Shown here: in pieces, positions 2,614 to 13,413 of the stretch
Position numbering within the stretch: the first letter of the stretch is position 1
How the letters are laid out: each line of letters begins with the position of its first letter
Made by a program: the position numbers and the translations under genes
Notes under the pieces: model-generated
The model's input: the letters and a program-made list of their open reading frames with translations, nothing else
Databases searched by the model: none
What the model was told of the DNA's origin: nothing
Source of the DNA: Roseibium algicola
Lineage (GTDB): Bacteria; Pseudomonadota; Alphaproteobacteria; Rhizobiales; Stappiaceae
DNA: 64,000 bases
Direction: 5' to 3'
Assembly: GCF_001999245.1 (NCBI RefSeq)
Contig: NZ_CP019630.1
Span: forward strand, 2,534,501 to 2,598,500

Positions 2614-4413
2614 TCAGGACAGGTGATGCACCTGCTGAAGGCCGTAGACCGGGGTCGGCAGGCCTTCCATCCGCGCTTTCAGCTGTAGCGCCAGATACTG
2701 GGAGTAATGGCGCGACTGGTGCAGGTTGCCACCATGGAACCAGAGCGCTTCCTGCTGGGTCGGTTTCCACATGTTCCGCTGTTCGCCTTCCCAGGGCCCC
2801 GGGTCCTTGGTGGTGTCGGAACCAAGACCCCAGACCTTGCCAACCCTGTCGGCCATGTCCTGGCCCATCAGGTCGGCAACCCAGCCGTTCATGGAACCGT
2901 AGCCGGTGGCATAGACAATCACGTCCGCTTCCAGCTTCGTGCCATCGTCCAGGATGACACCGTCTTCCACGATCTCGGTGACCTGGCCACGCTTCAGCTT
3001 GATCTCGCCGTCGATGATAAGCTGGCTGGCGCCGATATCAATGTAGTAGCCGGAGCCCCTGCGCAGGTATTTCAGGAAAAGGCCGCTTTCGTCGTCGCCC
3101 CAGTCCAGCCAGAACCCGGCTTTCTCCAGCCCTTCGTAGAAGTCCGCGTCCCGCTTCTTCATCTCCGCATAGGCTGGGATCTGGAACTCGTGCAGGATCC
3201 GGTAGGGCAGTGAGGCGAAGATCAGGTCCGCCTTTTCCGTCGTCACGCCGGACCGGACCGCCTCTTCCGAGTAAAGCGCGCCGAGGCCAACATCCATCAG
3301 GGTGTCGGAGCGCACGATATGGGTGGAAGACCGCTGCACCATGGTCACATCGACATCATTTTCCCAAAGCGCCGCGCAGATATCGTGCGCCGAATTGTTG
3401 GAGCCGACCACCACCGCCTTCTTGCCGCGATACTGATCCGGCCCCGGATGTCTGGACGAATGATGCTGGTCGCCCTTGAAGGTGTCCATGCCGGGAAATT
3501 TCGGAACGTTCGCCTTGCCCGACATGCCGGTTGCCATGACCAGCTGTTTCGGTTTCAGAACCACTTCCTCTCCGTCACGATCCACGACGACTGTCCATTC
3601 CTTCTTTGCTTCGTCGTAAGTTGCGGATTTGGCAACGGTCCGGGTCCAGTAGTTCAGTTCCATGACCTTGGTGTACATTTCCAGCCAGTCGCCAATCTTG
3701 TCCTTGGGGCTGAAGATGGGCCAGTTTTCCGGGAACTTGATGTAGGGCAGGTGGTCGTACCAGACGGGATCGTGCAGGCAGAGGGACTTGTAGCGGTTGC
3801 GCCAGCTGTCGCCGGGCCGGTCATTCTTTTCCACGATGATGGTGGGCACACCGAGCTGCCTCAGGCGCGCGCCGAGCGCGATGCCGCCCTGGCCGCCACC
3901 GATGATCAGGCAATAGGGCTGGGTCTTGTAACCGAGGTCCACCAGTTCACGCTCGCGCTCCTCCTTCCAGCTGGTGCGGTGCTTGCTGGCGCCATGCTTG
4001 GCCCCCAGCGGCCGGTTGAAGCCCTTCGGCTCCTCATGGCCCTTCAGCTCGGCCATGGTTGTCAGCAGGGTCCAGATCTTGCCGCCCTTCAGCCGGATCA
4101 GGCCGAAGCAGCGGGCCCGTTCGGTATCGAACTGAATCCAGGCCGTGACGACATCGCCCTCTTTCGTCGGTATTTCGCCTTCCGCGATGCGCCAGTTGCT
4201 CGGCCCGGTGGAGGCCAGTTGCTTTTCCAGCATGTCGCGGACCTGATCCTTGCCCTCGACGGTCTTGATGTTCCAGGTAAAGGCAATCAGGTCCCGCCAG
4301 TAGCAATCGTCCAGGAACATGTCCGTTGCAGCATCGATCTTGCCGTCTTCCAGCGCCTTGCCGAAAGTGTTGAGAAAAGTCTCGGTCTCGTGAACCAATG
4401 GTTTGTCGAGCAT
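2614..4413 (-). CDS. Flavin-containing monooxygenase with N-terminal NTF2-like domain
   Basis: About 599 residues in two parts. Residues 1-130 resemble an NTF2/SnoaL-like domain. From about residue 165 there is a class B flavin monooxygenase core with an FAD Rossmann motif (IIGGGQGGIALGARL), an FMO-type signature in which the final Tyr/Trp is His (FKGDQHHSSRH), an NADPH-site motif VVVGSNNSAHD and the late ATGYGS motif. Such enzymes use NADPH and O2 to oxygenate small substrates (N-, S- or Baeyer-Villiger type); the substrate here is unknown. The start is the ATG at 4413, preceded by AGGAGG seven bases away; upstream in-frame sequence is promoter. The AcoR-like regulator gene lies 135 bp upstream on the same strand and the intervening DNA holds a dyad operator, so this is its probable target. 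Confidence 0.88.
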   Translation of the reverse strand: MLDKPLVHETETFLNTFGKALEDGKIDAATDMFLDDCYWRDLIAFTWNIKTVEGKDQVRDMLEKQLASTGPSNWRIAEGEIPTKEGDVVTAWIQFDTERARCFGLIRLKGGKIWTLLTTMAELKGHEEPKGFNRPLGAKHGASKHRTSWKEERERELVDLGYKTQPYCLIIGGGQGGIALGARLRQLGVPTIIVEKNDRPGDSWRNRYKSLCLHDPVWYDHLPYIKFPENWPIFSPKDKIGDWLEMYTKVMELNYWTRTVAKSATYDEAKKEWTVVVDRDGEEVVLKPKQLVMATGMSGKANVPKFPGMDTFKGDQHHSSRHPGPDQYRGKKAVVVGSNNSAHDICAALWENDVDVTMVQRSSTHIVRSDTLMDVGLGALYSEEAVRSGVTTEKADLIFASLPYRILHEFQIPAYAEMKKRDADFYEGLEKAGFWLDWGDDESGLFLKYLRRGSGYYIDIGASQLIIDGEIKLKRGQVTEIVEDGVILDDGTKLEADVIVYATGYGSMNGWVADLMGQDMADRVGKVWGLGSDTTKDPGPWEGEQRNMWKPTQQEALWFHGGNLHQSRHYSQYLALQLKARMEGLPTPVYGLQQVHHLS

Positions 4414-4459
4414 TCCAGTTCCTCCCTGTTTATGGAGGAAACAATGCAGAGCGCCCCTG

Positions 4460-4484
4460 CATTTTTCCATGGAACGCCCGTCAA
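4460..4484 (-). promoter_or_regulatory. Possible sigma-70-type promoter of the monooxygenase gene
   Basis: On the minus strand a TTGACG -35-like hexamer occupies 4479-4484, with a weak AT-rich -10 region about 16-17 bases downstream. No sigma-54 -24/-12 element (TGGCAC-N5-TTGC) was seen in this gap. The -10 is poor, so the call is tentative. Confidence 0.3.
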
Positions 4485-4517
4485 TTGATGACATTAAGGG
4501 GCAGAAACTCCGTTTGC

Positions 4518-4543
4518 TGTTGCGCACGCAACAGGACGCAACA
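4518..4543. promoter_or_regulatory. Triple half-site operator TGTTGCG / CGCAACA
   Basis: TGTTGCG (4518-4524) and CGCAACA (4527-4533) form a perfect 7-bp inverted repeat with a 2-nt spacer. A third identical CGCAACA copy follows at 4537-4543. The site lies between the AcoR-like regulator and the monooxygenase gene, about 34 bp upstream of the candidate -35. Dyads of this type suit the Fis-type HTH of AcoR-like regulators, so binding by the neighbouring regulator is inferred. Confidence 0.6.
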
Positions 4544-4548
4544 GATAG

Positions 4549-6309
4549 TCATGCACGCGGCTTGGGGTGTGGCTCCAGGCCGAGAGAGCGCATCCGCCGG
4601 AGCACCGTCGACCGATTGACGCCAAGCCTTCGGGCGACCTGGGACATGTTCCAGCCACAGGCGTCCAGAAGCGCTTCCAGATCCTGTTTCGGGTCGGTTT
4701 CGACGCGTCTGGACAAAGACGCCTGCGGCAGATCGGTAAGGTCGATCACATCGGTTTCTGCAAGCGCTGTCGCGACATCCAGCAAGGTCGCGAGTTCACG
4801 GATGTTGCCCGGCCAATGCCGGCCGCTGAGTTCGGCGCGTGCCGAAGGTGACAGGCGCAGGTCCCGCGGAGAGCGTCGCAGCAGACGATCGACCAGCCAG
4901 TCGAAATCCTGGCGATGCCGGAGTGGCGGGATCCGGATGAGAGACCCGGCAAGCCTGAAATAGAGTTCCGGCCGCAATGCGCGGATGCTTGTGGAACCTG
5001 CCGGATCCTGCCGCGTGGTGGCGACCACGCGAAGATCACTTCGGTGTTCCAGCAAGGCAAGCAAGGCAGCCTGGCCCGCCATGTCAAGATCTTCGATCCC
5101 GCGCAGGAACAGCGTTCCGGCTGCAGCATCAGACAAGGCGGCGACCTTTTCCGGTTTCAGAGCGGAACAGCAGAGCGTATGGAACGACCGGTCTGCAGGA
5201 CCCAGAACATGGATGGCCCTTGCCAGATATTCCTTGCCCGTTCCGGTTTCGCCAGACAGCAGGATGGGAACCTGCGTTGGTGCAAGCCGGGCAACTTTCG
5301 ACACCACCTGCGACAGCGTCGCATCCTGCCCGCAGATGCCGCGCAGCGGCGTGGGCAAGGTCCCGGAAACGGGGCTGCGTGCCATGCGTGCGGCTTGCGG
5401 AGCGATGGCATGACCGTATAACCCACCACCGTCGCGCCGGCGCAGAACCCGATCTTCTGCCGGGCGGCCTCGCATCAGTGACGGCAGATCGTCGACATCC
5501 AGGTCCAGGTACATGTCGATCCGGCTTCCTATGAGGTCTGTGGAGCCGGTCGGGGCCAGACAGGCGAGCGCGCCGTGCGTCATTCCCGTTATCCGTCCGC
5601 TGTCGTCCAGGGCGATGGCGGCTTCCGGATCGACTTCCAGAAACTCCGGCGATGTCGAGAAGCGCAAGACCCATTCCTTGCGTGTGGTCGCCATCAGGTT
5701 GGCCATCTCGACCCGGCGGGTGGAAGCCTTCACCAGGTTCATCGCGAGGTTCTGGCTCGATTTCGGGCTTGGGGAGCGCAGGAGGGAAATATCCAGAACC
5801 GCCGCCAGCTTGCCGCAGGTGTCGTAGATGGGGGCCGCCGTGCAGGACAGCGGTGTATGCGACAGCCCGAAGTGATCGCTCTGGTGTATCGTGACAGCTT
5901 CCCCCGTCACGATGCAGGAGCCGACACCGCAGGTTCCCGCAAGATCCTCGGACCAGTCGGACCCGAGATAAAGGCCCGCCTGCCGGAGATCGTCCTCGAA
6001 CCGCGGATCACCGAAGAAGTCGACGCACACACCCTTGGCATCGGCCAGCAGCAGCACGTAGTTGTGCCCGGCCACCTGCTTGAACAGGGTGCGCAGGCCG
6101 GAACGAGCCGTCGCGATCAACCGCTCGGACTGCTCCTGATGTTCGCGCAGTTGCTGCTCGGTGACGATATGTGCCGGTTCCGGACGCGCCGGATCCATGC
6201 CGTACGTCTGGACACAGCGCCGCCAGCTTTCCGACACCAGCCCATCCCTGCCGGTCTCGTACCCCTTCAATACGCGGTCGATTTCACTCACATGTTCAAG
6301 GTCGCGCAT
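4549..6309 (-). CDS. AcoR-like transcriptional regulator lacking the GAFTGA motif
   Basis: About 586 residues with AcoR layout: a GAF-type sensory region (roughly residues 70-210, including the GTCGVGSCIVTGE cluster), a PAS-like linker, a partial AAA+ domain from about residue 340, and a C-terminal Fis-type HTH (NMSQVARRLGVNRSTVLRRM). Walker A (GETGTGKE) and an arginine-finger-like RPELYFRL are present. The GAFTGA loop that contacts sigma-54 is deleted, and the Walker B region reads GTLFLRGIEDLD instead of GTLFLDEIG. It may therefore act without sigma-54. The chosen ATG has GGAGG five bases upstream; a GTG six codons earlier is less likely. It sits between the cyclooxygenase-like gene (upstream) and the monooxygenase gene (downstream). 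Confidence 0.9.
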   Translation of the reverse strand: MRDLEHVSEIDRVLKGYETGRDGLVSESWRRCVQTYGMDPARPEPAHIVTEQQLREHQEQSERLIATARSGLRTLFKQVAGHNYVLLLADAKGVCVDFFGDPRFEDDLRQAGLYLGSDWSEDLAGTCGVGSCIVTGEAVTIHQSDHFGLSHTPLSCTAAPIYDTCGKLAAVLDISLLRSPSPKSSQNLAMNLVKASTRRVEMANLMATTRKEWVLRFSTSPEFLEVDPEAAIALDDSGRITGMTHGALACLAPTGSTDLIGSRIDMYLDLDVDDLPSLMRGRPAEDRVLRRRDGGGLYGHAIAPQAARMARSPVSGTLPTPLRGICGQDATLSQVVSKVARLAPTQVPILLSGETGTGKEYLARAIHVLGPADRSFHTLCCSALKPEKVAALSDAAAGTLFLRGIEDLDMAGQAALLALLEHRSDLRVVATTRQDPAGSTSIRALRPELYFRLAGSLIRIPPLRHRQDFDWLVDRLLRRSPRDLRLSPSARAELSGRHWPGNIRELATLLDVATALAETDVIDLTDLPQASLSRRVETDPKQDLEALLDACGWNMSQVARRLGVNRSTVLRRMRSLGLEPHPKPRA

Positions 6310-6425
6310 GTCATCCTCCCTTGACACAGCACTTCACGATAGCCTTTCAGGCAGGCTTTGCAAATTTTGCCGGCGCAATTCTGCGTTCGTAAAGCTTGTG
6401 CAGAGGGGAAGCCCGGCCAGGGATA

Positions 6426-8510
6426 TCAGCCTGGCCAGGTCAAAAGCGTGTCCTTGTTGATGGTGAAATTCGCGTTCGGCCTTCTGGCGTTGGCGGCAAC
6501 GTTGAGATCGACAATGTTCTGGAAGGTGGACGTCGCCTCGATTTCCGTCATGCCATACTCGGTGAAGACCTCCGGACCGAAGATATTCTTTGCCAGAAGC
6601 GGGTTGGTGAGTGCCTGGGAGAAGGCGTCGGACCCGACCATGGCCAGAAGCAGGGGCGGCAGCGGGCGCGCCCGCATCTGGTCTTCTGCCAGCAGTCCGA
6701 TGGGAAGATCGACCCGATCGATGCCGCGCACGCCGTTCCAGTCGGGATAGAGTGCTTCCAGCTCTCCCGCCAGACCGGCGTCGCCTCCGGTCAGTTCCAG
6801 GAAACTGTCGTACGGACGCAGCTTCCAGGAGGCGCGGTAGGCGTTGAAGGGGGCGAGCCGGAACCTGCGGGCAAATGCCAGCGTGCGCTCTTCCGCGCCT
6901 TGCAGGAAGAACGGGGTGTTGTGAAGGGTCAGCTTGCCTGCCCGCTGGCTCGCCGCCGCATCGATGACCGCCTCGACGCCGTGTTTTTCGATGATCGTGT
7001 TGTTGAAGCGGAAATTCTCGTTTTCCAGTACCTCGCCCTGGAACAGGAACCGATCCGGAACCATGGCATGCCAGCGGTAAAGCAGGTCGAATTCCAGCGA
7101 GATCCGGTTGGTGCGGTACCACAGGCGCTTGTCCGCGTCGCCAGGCTCCACGAAGATCTTGAACGGTGAATTGGCAAGGTGGTTGATATAGTCCTCGATA
7201 ATGACCTTGAGCAGCTTGACGATGTTGATGTTGCGGGCCGTTTCGAAGACGCGGTCCGAACCGAAGTGCGGGTTCCGTTTGCCGATCTCGCGCGCGAGAC
7301 GATTGTGCTCGCGCAGGAAGATCGTGTTGAGCGCGCTGTAGAGAATCGTGGAATTGGCCCGTTCCAGGCCGGCTGCATAGTGGCATTTCCAGCGCTCCGG
7401 CGTGACGGCCCAATCCCCGATACCGGCCAGTAGTTCCCGAAGCTTTTTCGCCGCGCCCCATTCCGGATCTGCCCCCAGGAAGGTCGTTGCCCACATGGGC
7501 ATGAAATGAATGCCGGCAAACTCGGCTTTGACTGCCAGATCCGGGCCCGCGAGCAGCGGCGGCAGCTCGCCGACGGACGTCTGCCGGGACTTCAGAAAAG
7601 CGCCTTCCCGTAAAAACGAGGTGGTTTCCTCGCCAAGACCGTAGATCTGGCAAAGATCGATTTCGTGGTTCGAGGTGTTCAGCCGTTTGTTCAGCGGATG
7701 AGTGCGCAGGAAACTGTCGGTGAACCACTGGGCAAAGAAGCAGAACAGCGTGCTGGTGTCGCTCTCGACCATCGCCTTGCGCCGGTAAAGTTCCGCCACC
7801 CTCGGCACTTCCGGCAGGGCATCGACAAAATCCTGATCCACGGGTGGCAGGTGCCGGCCGGTGTAGCGGCGGTCAACCAGACCCGGCCAGCTGGCGAAGG
7901 TGCTGGTGGTCTTTTCCGGATCCTTTGGGCCCGCAACCATTTCCAGATGCGTTTCCGGATCATGCGGTGTCCAGAGGGAGAGCGGGAGCGGACGACCGGG
8001 AGGCGCGTTCGAGATGCCGTTGATGACAAGACGGTTGATCACCCGGCTGAGCGGACCGCAACGCTTGACCAGCCGGACGAGGGCGGGAAAGGCCTCGGCC
8101 AGTTTCAGTGCCTGGCCGCCGATGAAACCGAGGATCCGCTTGTGCACCGGCGGATCCCGCAGAACGTCCCTCTCGGAACGGGCGCCGAGCTGATCCAGAA
8201 ACGGCACGAACACCAGGGCATAGAGGATATGTGGCCAGACGTGGTGGTGCCAGACATCCTGCAGCACGAATATGAACACAAAGGCGACGACCACATTGCC
8301 GCCGATGAAGATCCAGTAGCCGATGCGCAGCCGTCGGAACATGAGCCAGTTGGCATAGGCGCCGGCCCCCAGCGCCAGCCCGAGGACCATGTGTATCGGA
8401 TCGAAATCGTAGCGGAAGAATTCCTCGACACCGCGATAGGCCATGATCGTCCCAACGAGCAGGCAGATGATGTCGAGAAACGTTCCCTTGAAGGATGCGC
8501 TAAGCCTCAT
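6426..8510 (-). CDS. Membrane-anchored cyclooxygenase-like haem dioxygenase (animal haem peroxidase family)
   Basis: 694 residues. Four predicted N-terminal membrane helices (about 11-27, 38-58, 63-84, 90-105) precede an animal-haem-peroxidase domain that aligns by eye with prostaglandin G/H synthases. Matches include FFAQWFTDSFLRT, FLREHNRLA, the NRISLEFDLLYRWHAMVPDRF block and FNAYRASWKLRPYDSF. In COX numbering the radical Tyr385 and proximal His388 are kept (Y478, H481). Gln203 is kept (Q261) and a Ser aligns with Ser530 (S631). Distal His207 is replaced by Asp (D265). Known relatives oxygenate polyunsaturated fatty acids to hydroperoxides; the substrate here is not known. Its ATG overlaps the stop of the upstream catalase-like/cytochrome gene by 4 bp, so the two should be co-translated. 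A linoleate-diol-synthase-type or alpha-dioxygenase activity is an alternative. Confidence 0.88.
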   Translation of the reverse strand: MRLSASFKGTFLDIICLLVGTIMAYRGVEEFFRYDFDPIHMVLGLALGAGAYANWLMFRRLRIGYWIFIGGNVVVAFVFIFVLQDVWHHHVWPHILYALVFVPFLDQLGARSERDVLRDPPVHKRILGFIGGQALKLAEAFPALVRLVKRCGPLSRVINRLVINGISNAPPGRPLPLSLWTPHDPETHLEMVAGPKDPEKTTSTFASWPGLVDRRYTGRHLPPVDQDFVDALPEVPRVAELYRRKAMVESDTSTLFCFFAQWFTDSFLRTHPLNKRLNTSNHEIDLCQIYGLGEETTSFLREGAFLKSRQTSVGELPPLLAGPDLAVKAEFAGIHFMPMWATTFLGADPEWGAAKKLRELLAGIGDWAVTPERWKCHYAAGLERANSTILYSALNTIFLREHNRLAREIGKRNPHFGSDRVFETARNINIVKLLKVIIEDYINHLANSPFKIFVEPGDADKRLWYRTNRISLEFDLLYRWHAMVPDRFLFQGEVLENENFRFNNTIIEKHGVEAVIDAAASQRAGKLTLHNTPFFLQGAEERTLAFARRFRLAPFNAYRASWKLRPYDSFLELTGGDAGLAGELEALYPDWNGVRGIDRVDLPIGLLAEDQMRARPLPPLLLAMVGSDAFSQALTNPLLAKNIFGPEVFTEYGMTEIEATSTFQNIVDLNVAANARRPNANFTINKDTLLTWPG

Positions 8511-10966
8511 GACCGCCCCGCATATTGCTTGGATTTGAGATATTCGATCAGTGCGGATTTCTCGCCGTCCGGAAGACCGGTGCCGTAAAGATGTCCACCA
8601 TTGCCGTTGCCGGTCAGCTGCGTGTCGAACAGGAAGCCACTTTCGCAGGCAAAGCCGACGTCCACCGGATCGAAATCCGTGCAGCCGCGATAGAAGGTCG
8701 CCGGACGGTCTTCCGGCGGTGACAAAAGCGCCCGAAGCGTCGGCACGGAACCATTGTGGAGATAAGGCCCGCGTGCCCAGATGGCGTCCAGCGGCGTGTT
8801 TGCATAGCCGTCCGTTGCCCGGTAGTGCGAGAACCGCCAGGTGTACCCCTTGCCGACATCGCCGAAGCGGCTGACGAAGGCATCGTCGAAGAGGTCAGAT
8901 CGTGCCGGGTCTGTCTGAAGGTCCGAAAGCGGCGTGACCTGCCCGAAGCTCTCGCCTCCTGGGTCATGACACGTGCCGCAGCCTTCCCTTTCGTATATCG
9001 CAGCGCCGTCTGCTGCCATGTCAGCATTGACTGGCAAGGGGTAGGCGGGCGGCGGCAGGTCCCGCAGCCATTCCGCCTGGGCATCGATCAGCCCGCGTTG
9101 CAGCAGCCATTCCTTGGCGCCGCCGGCAAGGGCGGCGGAATAGTTGCGCTCGATCAGCGAATTGTTGTTGCCGTCCCAGTGGAACCAGCCCCCCTCACGG
9201 ATGCCCTGGTTCCAGACCGAGGGAAAGTCGACCGTTCCGACCGCCTCGTCCTTTTCCGGGCCATAGCCCCAGCGCGCGCGCCAGTTGTTACCCGCGTCCG
9301 TGCGCCCGGGGCCATGCCGCGGTTTCACCTTCATCCAGCTGAAAGCGGTCGCCAGTCCATCGGCCTGGTCCTTGATGCCGGGTACAAGAATGGTGCGCAC
9401 CAGCAGACGGTCGATTGGCCCCAGAGGTCTGCCGGCCTGCGCGGCGCTTTCGATCACCGCATCCGCCGTCAGCTTGTCACTTGCGGCAACGTAGCCAAGG
9501 AACAGGATGTAGGACTGGATATCGAGCGTTTCGGCAGGTGCACCCAGCAACAACATGGTGTTGCCGCCTGCGGTGACTTCCGCGCTGTGGCAGGTGGCGC
9601 AATTGAAGCCGACCCTCGGCACACCGACGCGCCGGATGCTGAAGCCGATCGGAAGTTCCTGTCCCGGTTCCTCGATGAAGCCGAATGTGCGCCAGCCTTC
9701 GGGCAGCTCGTCCTTGAAAATTGCCGGCAGTTCGCGCCAGACCATGTAGGGGAAACCGTCCCATTCGGCGCCGATGGAACCGTATTTGAATTCGGCGACC
9801 GGATTGTCAAAGGTTTGTGGCGGACCCGGCTTGATTGTGAGGCGCTTGCCTTCCAGGACCAGGCAGGCGATCAGCAGCAGCGCCGCGACAATCGCCAACC
9901 AAAGCGGCATGCCGTCGTTTCTGGGCGATACGGAGGGTTGTTGCATCTTGTAGCTTTCCGGAATGCCGGCAAAGACGGGTGGAACAACGCCATTGACTTC
10001 ATGCCGCTTGCAAGCGGCACTCTCGTAGGCTTGTCGCCGGGCAAGGTTGATGGCGCCGACGGGCTCGTGCGCCGGCAGGCTGTTCCAGGGTGAAAAGGCG
10101 ATGTTCTCCGCCAGTGGGGCGTGTTGATCGACGTCCTGCTGAAAGATTTCCAGCGTCGCCAGCTTTTCGTGACGCGCGCCCGGCACCGCCGACCAGGCAA
10201 TCGACGGATCATCAACCGGCTGCGCGGCCGGATCTATCTGCACTTCGACGCCGAATTCAAAAGTGACCGGGCAACGGATCAGGGTTTCCCTCAGCGCGAC
10301 GGCCAATTGATCGCGTCCGGACCGGACCTCAGGCGGATCCACCGGCACCGGCCTTGGCGTTGCGGTATATTTCACCAGAAGATCGCCAAGCCGATAAGGC
10401 GTGGTGCTGAAGTATCGGCTTGCAAGCGGAGACACGGGACGATGAGAGACAAAGGCCCGGATCCTGCCGAAGAGATAGAAGCCCGTGAACAGAAGCCGGG
10501 ACAGGGGCTTCAGGCGGGCAAGTCCGCGTTTCAGCAGCAGGGTGTTGATGTCGTCATAGTCGCCGAGGTCACCGGTGAAAAAGGTTTCATGGTCGACGAG
10601 AATGAAGTCCTGCACCCTGCCGTCCGGGTTTTCAGCCGACAGCCACTCCCTGTCGATGCCCAGCACCTTGATGGCCATGCCGTGGGCGTCCCGCTTCCGG
10701 TCATCCAGTTGGCGGCCGTTGGAAAACCGGACAAGGGCGTCATATGTGCCCGGCAAGGCGAAGAGACCGTGACGCAAGTCCTCCGGCACTTCGCCGATAA
10801 TGAAGCGGGCGCGGACACAGCCGTGATGTTTCGGGTGCTGTGGGCGTCGCGCCAGACCGGGAACCGTGCAAATGGCCTCGGCATTGGTACGGGCAATGCT
10901 GTCGATCAGCCCCGCGTCTCCACCGGTTTCCGATATGCCCGGCCGTGCCGGTTCTCTCGAGGCCAT
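8507..10966 (-). CDS. Catalase-fold (allene-oxide-synthase-like) domain fused to a membrane-anchored two-haem cytochrome c
   Basis: 819 residues in three parts. Residues about 25-330 resemble the small catalase-like family: HPKHHGCVRARF with distal His candidates at 47-48, RFSNG at 80-84, DAHGMAIKVLG, and a proximal-Tyr-like RRQAYES with Tyr at 314. A single membrane span follows at 353-372. The C-terminal part has two c-type haem sites, CATCH (456-460) and CGTCH (663-667), in a fold resembling di-haem peroxidase/RoxA-type proteins. Since c-type haem is attached outside the cytoplasm and there is no N-terminal signal, the catalase-like half should be cytoplasmic and the cytochrome periplasmic. 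Catalase-fold relatives rearrange or reduce fatty-acid hydroperoxides. It is the first gene of the operon with the cyclooxygenase-like enzyme. Whether both halves share one electron path is inference. Confidence 0.85.
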   Translation of the reverse strand: MASREPARPGISETGGDAGLIDSIARTNAEAICTVPGLARRPQHPKHHGCVRARFIIGEVPEDLRHGLFALPGTYDALVRFSNGRQLDDRKRDAHGMAIKVLGIDREWLSAENPDGRVQDFILVDHETFFTGDLGDYDDINTLLLKRGLARLKPLSRLLFTGFYLFGRIRAFVSHRPVSPLASRYFSTTPYRLGDLLVKYTATPRPVPVDPPEVRSGRDQLAVALRETLIRCPVTFEFGVEVQIDPAAQPVDDPSIAWSAVPGARHEKLATLEIFQQDVDQHAPLAENIAFSPWNSLPAHEPVGAINLARRQAYESAACKRHEVNGVVPPVFAGIPESYKMQQPSVSPRNDGMPLWLAIVAALLLIACLVLEGKRLTIKPGPPQTFDNPVAEFKYGSIGAEWDGFPYMVWRELPAIFKDELPEGWRTFGFIEEPGQELPIGFSIRRVGVPRVGFNCATCHSAEVTAGGNTMLLLGAPAETLDIQSYILFLGYVAASDKLTADAVIESAAQAGRPLGPIDRLLVRTILVPGIKDQADGLATAFSWMKVKPRHGPGRTDAGNNWRARWGYGPEKDEAVGTVDFPSVWNQGIREGGWFHWDGNNNSLIERNYSAALAGGAKEWLLQRGLIDAQAEWLRDLPPPAYPLPVNADMAADGAAIYEREGCGTCHDPGGESFGQVTPLSDLQTDPARSDLFDDAFVSRFGDVGKGYTWRFSHYRATDGYANTPLDAIWARGPYLHNGSVPTLRALLSPPEDRPATFYRGCTDFDPVDVGFACESGFLFDTQLTGNGNGGHLYGTGLPDGEKSALIEYLKSKQYAGRS

Positions 10967-10994
10967 TCAGCCCGCCCTCTCGCGTTGGTGGGTC

Positions 10995-11031
10995 AAACGC
11001 ATGGACCGGCTCTTCAACTGCCGATGCGTTT
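10995..11031 (-). promoter_or_regulatory. Inverted repeat in the leader of the catalase-like/COX-like operon
   Basis: AAACGCAT (10995-11002) and ATGCGTTT (11024-11031) form a perfect 8-bp inverted repeat with 21 nt between the arms, starting 28 bp upstream of the first ATG. It could form a leader stem-loop or act as a protein site; no specific regulator is identified. Confidence 0.4.
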
Positions 11032-11036
11032 AATTA

Positions 11037-11048
11037 CCTTACGTAAGG
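11037..11048. promoter_or_regulatory. Perfect 12-bp palindrome CCTTACGTAAGG, candidate operator
   Basis: CCTTACGTAAGG is a perfect palindrome 71 bp upstream of the catalase-like/cytochrome start, next to AT-rich sequence that could serve as a -10 region on the minus strand. Size and position suit a dimeric repressor operator. The cognate regulator is unknown, and no TetR or MarR gene is adjacent. Confidence 0.45.
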
Positions 11049-11119
11049 CTAGCTTTTATTTTCAGGGAAGGGAAGGTTTCCGGCCGTTGTCCGTCACGGT
11101 GGTGTGACGGCATCCTTTT

Positions 11120-11155
11120 GAAATACAACCTGATTTAGACGCCGGGTTGTATTTC
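11120..11155. terminator. AT-rich hairpin between the siderophore-binding gene and the haem operon
   Basis: GAAATACAACC (11120-11130) and GGTTGTATTTC (11145-11155) form a perfect 11-bp stem with a 14-nt loop. A second inverted repeat, CCGTCAC/GTGACGG at 11091-11110, lies just beside it. These could insulate the haem operon from the upstream minus-strand gene. The T tract is short. Confidence 0.35.
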
Positions 11156-11207
11156 TTCGCTCCGACAATCATATCTGCTCCGTGCCAGAAGCTCGGAACG
11201 GCGAGGT

Positions 11208-11236
11208 GGCCCGGGTCAAAACTCTTGATCCGGGCC
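11208..11236 (-). terminator. GC-rich hairpin after the iron-siderophore binding protein gene
   Basis: GGCCCGG (11208-11214) pairs with CCGGGCC (11230-11236), and inner TCAA pairs with TTGA across one mismatch. It begins 18 bp beyond the stop of the minus-strand gene at 11255. No clear T tract follows, so termination is likely but not certain. Confidence 0.5.
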
Positions 11237-11254
11237 CTGTTGCTTCAAAGGAGT

Positions 11255-12178
11255 TCAGTTGGAACTGAGGTCGACATCCGTCCCGTAGATCCGGGCGATG
11301 TCCCGAAGCATTGCGCGGGCTGCAAGAATGCCCTGCGACGTTGCCCAGACACCGTCATCGACCTTGTGGGCGTTTCCCGCCTTGACGACTTCCAGATTGG
11401 CCCAGAGAGGGTCTTTCAGCGTCTCGCCCTCCAGGGCCGTGCCCTCTCCATTGCCGGTGTCGTATGTCAGGTAGAACATCCGGTCGGCTTCCATGTTCGG
11501 GATGCTTTCCTTGCCGACGGCAAGAGCCAGACCGTCCTGCGCCTGTACCTCGGGCCGCTTGAAGCCGATGTCGTTCAGCACAACACCGGAGAAACTGTCA
11601 TGGCGATAAACGTAAAGCTGGCCGGGCACGAAACGGACGACGGAAACCGTGTCCCCGGCATTCTCGCCGAGGGCGGCGCGCAACCGGGCAACGTCCGCCT
11701 CATAGGCACTGACAAGCGCTTCGCCTTCCGCTTCCATGCCGACCGAGCTGGCATAGAGCTTCATGTTGTCCTTGAAATCCGTGGCATTGATCACAAACAC
11801 CGTGGGCGCAATGGCGGAGAGCTGAGGATAGATTTCCTCGTGCCGCTTCTTGCTGCCGAGGATCAGATCCGGCTCAAGCATGGCCAGCCGTTCCAGGTTG
11901 ACCGCAAGCTCCGTCCCGACAACTTCAACTCCGGCCATCCGGTCGCCCAGATGCGGGTACCAGGGATCGCCATACCAGGAAGACGCAGCCCCAACAGGCG
12001 TCTTGCCCAGCATGAGCATTGCCTCGGTGCCTTCGTTGGTGAGAACGACAATCTTCTGCGGAGTGTCTGGCACCTCGGTGGTGCCCATGGCGTGGGTGAT
12101 CTCGGCAGCGGACAGGGCGCCGGGCAACAAGGTTGGCACCAGGGCTGCGCAAAAACAAAGGCTGGACAGAAAACGCAA
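11255..12178 (-). CDS. ABC transporter periplasmic iron-siderophore/haem-binding protein
   Basis: 307-residue periplasmic binding protein of the FecB/BtuF (TroA-like) class. A signal peptide ends near ALSA|AE at residue 24. The body has the typical pattern EVPDTPQKIVVLTNEGTEAMLMLG and LEPDLILGSKK, followed by the long helix joining two lobes. It should deliver ferric siderophore or a related chelate to an inner-membrane ABC permease, but no permease or ATPase gene is in the window, so it is an orphan component here. The start is TTG at 12178, preceded by GGAGA eight bases away. Ligand identity cannot be read from the sequence. Confidence 0.85.
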   Translation of the reverse strand: MRFLSSLCFCAALVPTLLPGALSAAEITHAMGTTEVPDTPQKIVVLTNEGTEAMLMLGKTPVGAASSWYGDPWYPHLGDRMAGVEVVGTELAVNLERLAMLEPDLILGSKKRHEEIYPQLSAIAPTVFVINATDFKDNMKLYASSVGMEAEGEALVSAYEADVARLRAALGENAGDTVSVVRFVPGQLYVYRHDSFSGVVLNDIGFKRPEVQAQDGLALAVGKESIPNMEADRMFYLTYDTGNGEGTALEGETLKDPLWANLEVVKAGNAHKVDDGVWATSQGILAARAMLRDIARIYGTDVDLSSN

Positions 12179-12276
12179 GGGGTATCTCCGGCATTACAGG
12201 TTATCTGGCTTGCCGAACCCCGACTGGCTTGAGGAATTTTTTCCTGGAAATTGCCGTCATTGTCAAATGAAGAAGA

Positions 12277-13413
12277 TCAGGCCTGCAGGAACCGTCCGGG
12301 TGCAAGCTGGTCCAGTGTGATACCGCAGGCGGACAGATCACCCGGCAGGTTCCGGCCGGCAACGAGGGCCGCCAGTGCCCTGCCCATCGCCGGGGATGTC
12401 AGAACCCCGCATCCGCCCTGGCCTGCGCTGACAAAATAACCCGGATGATCGGGAAATCCGCCGCAGACAGGGTTTCGATCAGGCGCAAACGTGCGCAGTC
12501 CTGCCCAGCTTGCGGATGGACGCGGCACGGCCAGCTCGGTGCCGATGCCGATATGATGGATCGCCTCTGCAAGGCGAAGATCATCTGCATAAACCTCTCC
12601 CGGAGAAACTGGATCAGCCTCTGCCGGTGACGCCGTGAAGCCGTGCGGCTGCGGATGGACGTACCAGGTGTAATCGGCCGTCGTGACATGTGGCCAGACA
12701 CCGGCTTCCTGACGGTGAAGCGGAAACGTGAAGGCCGAACGGCGGAAGACGTTGAGGCCAAGCGCCGGGACACCGGCAAGATCCGCAACCCGGTCCGCCC
12801 AGGCCCCGGCCGCATTGACCAGAACGGGCGCCGAAAGGGTCAGGTCTCCGGCCGTTACCTGCCATGTGTCGGCAATCCGCCGGATGGAAGTGACTTCCGC
12901 CTTGCAGACGAAGCGAGCGCCATTGGCAGCAGCCGCCTTGCGATAGGATTGCAGCAGCAGATCGACATCGATATCCATTGCATCTGCTTCGAAAACGCCC
13001 GCATGTACCCGTTCCGGCCGGAGGGCCGGAAACAGGGCCAAAGCCTCTTGTCTGTCAACAAACCGGCAGTCCGACCCGGCCTCCTGCAGCCTTGCTATCA
13101 GCCTGTCCAGAACAGGCCGATGCTCCTCACCCCCAACCGTCAGGCAGCCGCGGGGCGCGACAAGCGTCTGCTCGCAAAATTCCGGCGGCGGCGCCTGAAA
13201 GAACGCACGGCTTGCCGCGGCCAGTGCGCGCATGGTGTTGGCGGAAATGCCGGCCGTGAATTGCCCTGCCGTGCGGGCTGAAGACTGCGTTGCCAGCGCC
13301 GGCTCGCGCTCCAGAAGCGTCACTTGCGCAAACCCGGACAGAAAACAGGCCGCGCTCAGCCCGGCAACACCGCCGCCGATGATGATGACGTCTGCTGTCA
13401 TTGCGTCAGACAT
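12277..13413 (-). CDS. FAD-dependent DAO-family amino-acid oxidase/dehydrogenase
   Basis: 378-residue flavoprotein with the N-terminal ADP-binding motif VIIIGGGVAGLSAACFLSG and the C-terminal GYFVSAGQGGCGVLTSPAMG typical of the DAO family (glycine oxidase, D-amino acid dehydrogenase, sarcosine oxidase-like). It oxidises a C-N bond of an amine or amino acid using FAD; the substrate is unknown. No signal peptide, so cytoplasmic or peripheral. It ends 98 bp before the start of the siderophore-binding gene and begins 27 bp after the end of comM, all on the minus strand, so loose co-transcription is possible. Confidence 0.87.
   Translation of the reverse strand: MSDAMTADVIIIGGGVAGLSAACFLSGFAQVTLLEREPALATQSSARTAGQFTAGISANTMRALAAASRAFFQAPPPEFCEQTLVAPRGCLTVGGEEHRPVLDRLIARLQEAGSDCRFVDRQEALALFPALRPERVHAGVFEADAMDIDVDLLLQSYRKAAAANGARFVCKAEVTSIRRIADTWQVTAGDLTLSAPVLVNAAGAWADRVADLAGVPALGLNVFRRSAFTFPLHRQEAGVWPHVTTADYTWYVHPQPHGFTASPAEADPVSPGEVYADDLRLAEAIHHIGIGTELAVPRPSASWAGLRTFAPDRNPVCGGFPDHPGYFVSAGQGGCGVLTSPAMGRALAALVAGRNLPGDLSACGITLDQLAPGRFLQA

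Follow-up and report, generated by a model that had tools for sequence, protein, structure and literature searches.

The locus and its two genes

We analysed a 64,000-nucleotide stretch of Roseibium algicola DNA (contig NZ_CP019630.1, positions 2,534,501 to 2,598,500; hereafter the window), taken from a genome of 6.65 Mb in three contigs, and focused on a pair of adjacent minus-strand genes. The first gene (8507..10966) encodes an 819-residue protein, with a predicted structure of pLDDT 90.6, in which a catalase-related domain, a transmembrane helix and a RoxA-like dihaem cytochrome c domain are fused. The second (6426..8510) encodes a 694-residue cyclooxygenase (COX)-fold dioxygenase, made up of four N-terminal membrane helices and a catalytic domain. 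As the original prediction had noted, the start codon of the COX-like gene overlaps the stop codon of the upstream gene (ATGA, 8507-8510), and the fusion of a catalase fold to a cytochrome with two CxxCH motifs, which it had also recognized, is borne out by the 819-residue product. All parts of the two proteins given below lie on the minus strand.

The closest named relatives of the COX-like protein (91-92% identity) come from Roseibium aggregatum IAM 12614 and Stappia sp. BW2, both of which belong to the genus of the window in our genome sample and have an identical gene order. Nei-Gojobori ratios of non-synonymous to synonymous substitution rates (dN/dS) against these two genomes are 0.07-0.09 for the COX gene; within the fused gene they are 0.16-0.17 over the catalase part and 0.07-0.08 over the dihaem part. 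Both genes therefore look maintained as functional.

A COX fold with the motifs of 10S-dioxygenases

The closest functional precedent is found in Nostoc punctiforme, in which a linoleate 10S-dioxygenase (10S-DOX; B2J5P4) works with a catalase-related 10S-hydroperoxide lyase, as described in the accessible parts of PMC13049297, PMC9579011 and PMC9410191; in the latter two, linoleate is converted to the 10S-hydroperoxide and then to 1-octen-3-ol. The COX-like protein of the window carries several of the sequence features printed for the 10S-DOX subfamily. Its FTDSF motif (residues 263-267; 7710..7724) is identical in letters to F143tdsF of the Nostoc enzyme and places D265 at the position of the COX distal His207; Tyr348, Tyr385 and His388 correspond to Y441, Y478 and H481; and GSDAFSQA (residues 626-633; 6612..6635) matches the terminal GxDAFxQA motif. 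By alignment, YRWH (residues 478-481; 7068..7079) holds the equivalents of the radical Tyr385 and the proximal His388. A YxWH motif is present in all 120 listed homologues, 119 of which have Asp at the distal-histidine position (Val in the remaining one), as do all 15 clade members drawn from fetched loci, some with an LTDGF variant.

The protein shares with mammalian COX-1 and COX-2 the fold, including the membrane-binding region, together with Tyr385, Tyr348 and His388. It differs from them, and from prostaglandin H synthases in general, in having Asp instead of the distal His207, although Gln203 is kept as Q261; it also has Ala at the Ser530 position, a correspondence taken from the accessible text on 10S-DOX. 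R384 may fall at the position of Val291 of COX-1, as judged by a hand count against COX-2 letters, and under a loose pattern Arg is found there in 111 of the 120 homologues, with Asn or His in Ruegeria and in genome G507. A placement outside the COX/dioxygenase branch, which the original prediction had named as telling against it, was not observed.

The N-terminal region (residues 5-104; 8199..8498) is probably membrane-embedded: the structure has helices at 5-32, 38-58, 62-82 and 87-104, and hydropathy peaks at 5-23 and 65-83 only. Close homologues keep an HHV-PH motif in this region, which might bind haem or quinone.

A catalase-related domain tethered to a RoxA-like dihaem domain

The catalase-related domain (approximately residues 12-346; 9929..10933) has the haem arginines, distal histidine and proximal tyrosine of the catalase fold: R41, H44, R80, Y314 and R321, the last two placed by hand, are equivalent to R64, H67, R102, Y353 and R360 of the coral enzymes cAOS and cHPL. 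Its nearest folds are catalase-related proteins, ahead of true catalases by only 1-2 Z. The partner of the coral enzymes is a lipoxygenase, not a COX.

A single transmembrane helix (residues 353-371; 9854..9910; hydropathy 2.79, modelled as a helix at 355-378) leads into the dihaem domain (approximately residues 386-812; 8531..9811). The family features of RoxA-like proteins are all present, namely two CxxCH motifs (CATCH at 456 and CGTCH at 663), PY[LF]HNG (PYLHNGSVP at 734) and an axial histidine near the C terminus (792), and they recur in 49, 46 and 49, respectively, of 50 homologue rows (P0241-P0290, of 66 found). RoxA is the best solved-structure match, and the window domain shares with RoxA and the Pseudomonas aeruginosa FadCcps (PA2077 and PA2078, compared only through the motif printed in PMC4496055) the two CxxCH motifs, PY[LF]HNGSVP, the axial GH and a W302 equivalent. 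It differs in being shorter (about 430 residues), fused to a catalase and devoid of F317, a residue essential in the RoxA rubber oxygenase (PMC4496055), which is Ala or Leu in two alignments; on the RoxA NCBIfam model it scores 58.7, against a cut-off of 1000.

Recurrent linkage in other genomes

We compared 18 loci of the COX clade (the window, L001, L002, L011-L013, L020-L028 and L032-L034). A catalase-related gene lies within 5 kb of the COX gene in nine of them: the window, R. aggregatum and Stappia sp. BW2, all three with the fused gene, as well as G446, G211, Paracoccus yeei, Methylobacterium currus and two Ruegeria. The original prediction would have been weakened had the two genes rarely co-occurred, and these nine loci indicate otherwise. 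In three rhizobial loci a P450 gene sits directly upstream of COX, and the other six have neither a catalase-related gene nor a P450 among the queries used. In P. yeei and G446 the genes run RoxA-like, catalase, COX, whereas in G211 the catalase and dihaem genes are divergent from COX. Twelve plasmid records had a COX match; nine were fetched, and the other three are further P. yeei records with the same arrangement as judged by match coordinates.

Fusions point in the same direction. The COX-catalase fusions group together with support (8 of 66 tree rows, SH-aLRT 99), nested in the broader clade to which the window protein belongs, with catalase fused to dioxygenase in P0020-P0027, and catalase-adjacent COX genes are spread over several places in the tree; as the tree comes from a quick method and has long branches, we draw no exact gain counts from it. 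RoxA-catalase fusions also occur in reverse order (P0282, P0287), other catalase fusion partners are patatin (P0291), SnoaL (P0228) and, in a eukaryote, lipoxygenase (P0300), and 23 of the 120 COX-like homologues are fused to a P450.

Genome-wide co-occurrence is weak as proof, and adjacency is the better evidence. In the class sample, 3 of 385 genomes have COX, 20 have the catalase-related family and 2 have both, one of them the query genome. Among nine COX-positive genomes, six have a catalase-related gene and six a RoxA-like match, although in G507 both lie on a different contig from COX. Coincidences of contig size between homologue lists join COX with catalase 7 times, COX with dihaem 7 times and catalase with dihaem 8 times, where shifted controls averaged 0.77, 0.29 and 0.43, respectively, with maxima of 4, 2 and 3; they back the linkage as supporting evidence only.

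Some candidates were set aside. Patatin is not a regular member, as 3 of 21 fetched plasmid records (two unannotated) and one fusion are too few. In the query genome, 3 desaturase and 6 patatin matches exceed the cut-off, but these say little about substrate supply because patatin also passes it in 9 of 14 control genomes. The Qingshengfaniella peroxidase and the rhizobial catalase-peroxidase fusions belong to a different animal-peroxidase branch and were left out of the COX counts.

Several plasmids carry related sets. On a Rhizobium phaseoli plasmid (L121:5332-9829), a catalase domain is fused to an animal haem peroxidase of a different branch and stands beside a RoxA-like cytochrome, a similar trio built from another peroxidase. 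The row on pNGR234a (L031:6016-13963) reads RoxA-like frame (match in two pieces), catalase, hypothetical, dihaem peroxidase and patatin-like phospholipase, and on a Phyllobacterium plasmid (L129:1181-8670) two annotated genes separate a catalase-peroxidase fusion from a patatin-like phospholipase upstream of it.

Relation to known systems

The window pair resembles that of Nostoc in combining a COX-fold oxygenase with a catalase-related protein. The Nostoc dioxygenase, of 542 residues, is without the long four-helix N-terminal part, and neither a RoxA-like domain nor a transmembrane tether, both present in the window, is mentioned in the accessible portions of the accounts. A cyanobacterial catalase-haem dioxygenase fusion that turns linoleate into 10S cleavage products was reported in 2012 (PMC11719350, accessible in part), and the catalase-COX fusion is therefore not new in kind; there catalase is joined to the dioxygenase, as in P0020-P0027, whereas in the window it is joined to the RoxA-like domain. 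Fungal DOX-CYP fusions (linoleate diol synthases) likewise couple a COX-type dioxygenase to a second haem enzyme, but this is a P450, and the distal histidine is retained in CcDOX1/2 according to the accessible text of PMC9579011. Bacterial cyclooxygenases were still termed putative sequences in 2015 in the part available of PMC4420034. Titles and abstracts contained no trio of COX, catalase-related and RoxA-like proteins in the literature covered, outside which most subscription papers and preprints lie. A precedent thus exists for the core of two enzymes; what looks new is the addition of a third, the fusion that spans the membrane and the spread among Proteobacteria. Brash 2014 is reportedly the primary report of the Nostoc pair.

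Proposed pathway and alternatives

We consider that the two genes probably encode a membrane-anchored fatty-acid oxygenation pair, which appears to extend the cyanobacterial two-enzyme pathway by a third haem enzyme. Given the fold and motifs in common with the assayed 10S-dioxygenase, an unsaturated fatty acid would lose an allylic hydrogen to a haem-generated Tyr478 radical and, on addition of O2, become a hydroperoxide. The catalase-related domain, which a topology argument likewise puts on the cytoplasmic side, would convert this hydroperoxide. As fold and precedent suggest, it would most likely act as a lyase or by rearrangement, and not by dismutating H2O2. The single helix would tether it to the dihaem domain, which should be periplasmic because c-type haems are attached there and which, in the least certain step, may oxidize the product further or exchange electrons with the other haems.

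Several observations weigh against this reading. Half of the COX loci (9 of 18) have no nearby catalase-related gene, and three of the nine COX-positive genomes have no catalase-related match at 1e-10. Conversely, 18 of the 20 catalase-related-positive genomes of the class sample have no COX-like match, which indicates that the catalase-related family has other roles too; within the roughly 8 kb viewed on each side (some contigs being short), a RoxA-like gene adjoins the catalase gene in three of these 18 (L068-L070). Of 114 plasmid records with a catalase-domain match, a spread of 40 was listed and nine fetched, and matches to COX, RoxA-like proteins and patatin are all absent from the six general catalase-family loci viewed. 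A class I peroxidase gene adjoins the COX-like gene at locus G739. Neither Thr66 nor Asn137 of cAOS is plainly conserved: Q43 stands at Thr66, where Gln is found in 106 of 111 motif-bearing rows (120 in all), and the Asn137 equivalent is ambiguous (V124/D125). Alphaproteobacterial lipids are mostly 18:1, not linoleate. Genes, folds, active-site residues, recurring linkage and purifying selection were observed directly, and from these we infer the substrate, the reactions and the direction of transfer. The oxylipin reading of the original prediction is supported in part.

A more elaborate version, which we put forward tentatively and think somewhat unlikely, is a membrane-spanning relay from a cytoplasmic-face COX dioxygenase through the tethered catalase-related domain to a periplasmic RoxA-like dihaem oxygenase. 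A doubly oxidized lipid would be made and exported, the dihaem domain might supply or drain oxidizing equivalents for the other haems, and an Asp/Arg distal pair, as in DyP peroxidases, would replace histidine in COX start-up.

It is unlikely that the system instead serves peroxide defence, with the haem domains clearing H2O2 and stress-formed lipid hydroperoxides and no specific oxylipin being made. The catalase fold and the dihaem peroxidase-family domain would suit such a role, as would the neighbour at G739, a related catalase-family gene next to a DyP peroxidase in Acinetobacter lwoffii and the catalase-DyP fusion P0297. However, the COX-like clade lacks the peroxidase distal histidine yet retains the radical tyrosine, its assayed relative is a dioxygenase in the accessible accounts, and the catalase part is closer, if only by the 1-2 Z noted, to catalase-related proteins.

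It seems to us quite improbable that the substrate is an isoprenoid (carotenoid, quinone or hopanoid) or another lipid, which the RoxA-like oxygenase would cleave while the COX-like and catalase domains act as co-oxidants. The structural match to polyisoprene-cleaving RoxA and the catalase-fold chanoclavine synthase, whose substrate is an alkaloid precursor, speak for it; the replacement of F317, the fatty-acid substrates of COX and alpha-dioxygenase relatives and the patatin-type phospholipase genes near related sets in 3 of 21 plasmid records speak against it. That two independent enzymes merely share an accessory island is very improbable, for although the pair sits with two other genes in such an insertion and half of the COX loci lack the catalase gene, the ATGA overlap, the catalase-COX fusions and separate recurrences in five genera argue otherwise.

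Genomic setting

The pair belongs to a four-gene accessory insertion (6426-13413) flanked by yifB and a sigma-54 regulator. The other two genes, candidate pathway neighbours on the minus strand, encode an iron-type ABC substrate-binding protein (11255-12178) and an FAD oxidoreductase (12277-13413). In 20 genomes searched, the binding-protein orthologue (88-90%) occurs only in the two COX-positive ones. COX itself is rare: it occurs in 4 of 87 genomes of the family and in 4 of 398 of the phylum sample, and these counts, like that for the class sample, include the query genome. COX-less congeners partly retain the order MFS, yifB, regulator, FMO, with yifB near the regulator in five of nine fetched loci. 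The regulator (4549-6327) and FMO (2614-4527) were rejected as parts of the system because, of 20 genomes of the genus searched, 18 are COX-less and 9 of these retain the regulator, and because in one congener without COX (L111) only about 60 bp lie between the match ends of yifB and the regulator. A -24/-12 pattern with at most two mismatches matched 34 times in the window, where chance would give 36. Between the fused gene and the binding-protein gene, upstream of the former, an inverted repeat GAAATACAACC-N14-GGTTGTATTTC (11120..11155), whose inner arms AAATACAAC/GTTGTATTT are kept in two relatives, is a plausible candidate operator.

Implications

If the proposed pathway is correct, COX-type lipid oxidation would be an accessory trait of Proteobacteria, beyond a cyanobacterial or eukaryotic curiosity, in which the dioxygenase is combined with a second enzyme drawn from an interchangeable set (catalase-related, P450 or RoxA-like). 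Roseibium would then offer a tractable genetic system for the function of bacterial oxylipins, and for radical start-up in a COX fold without a distal histidine.
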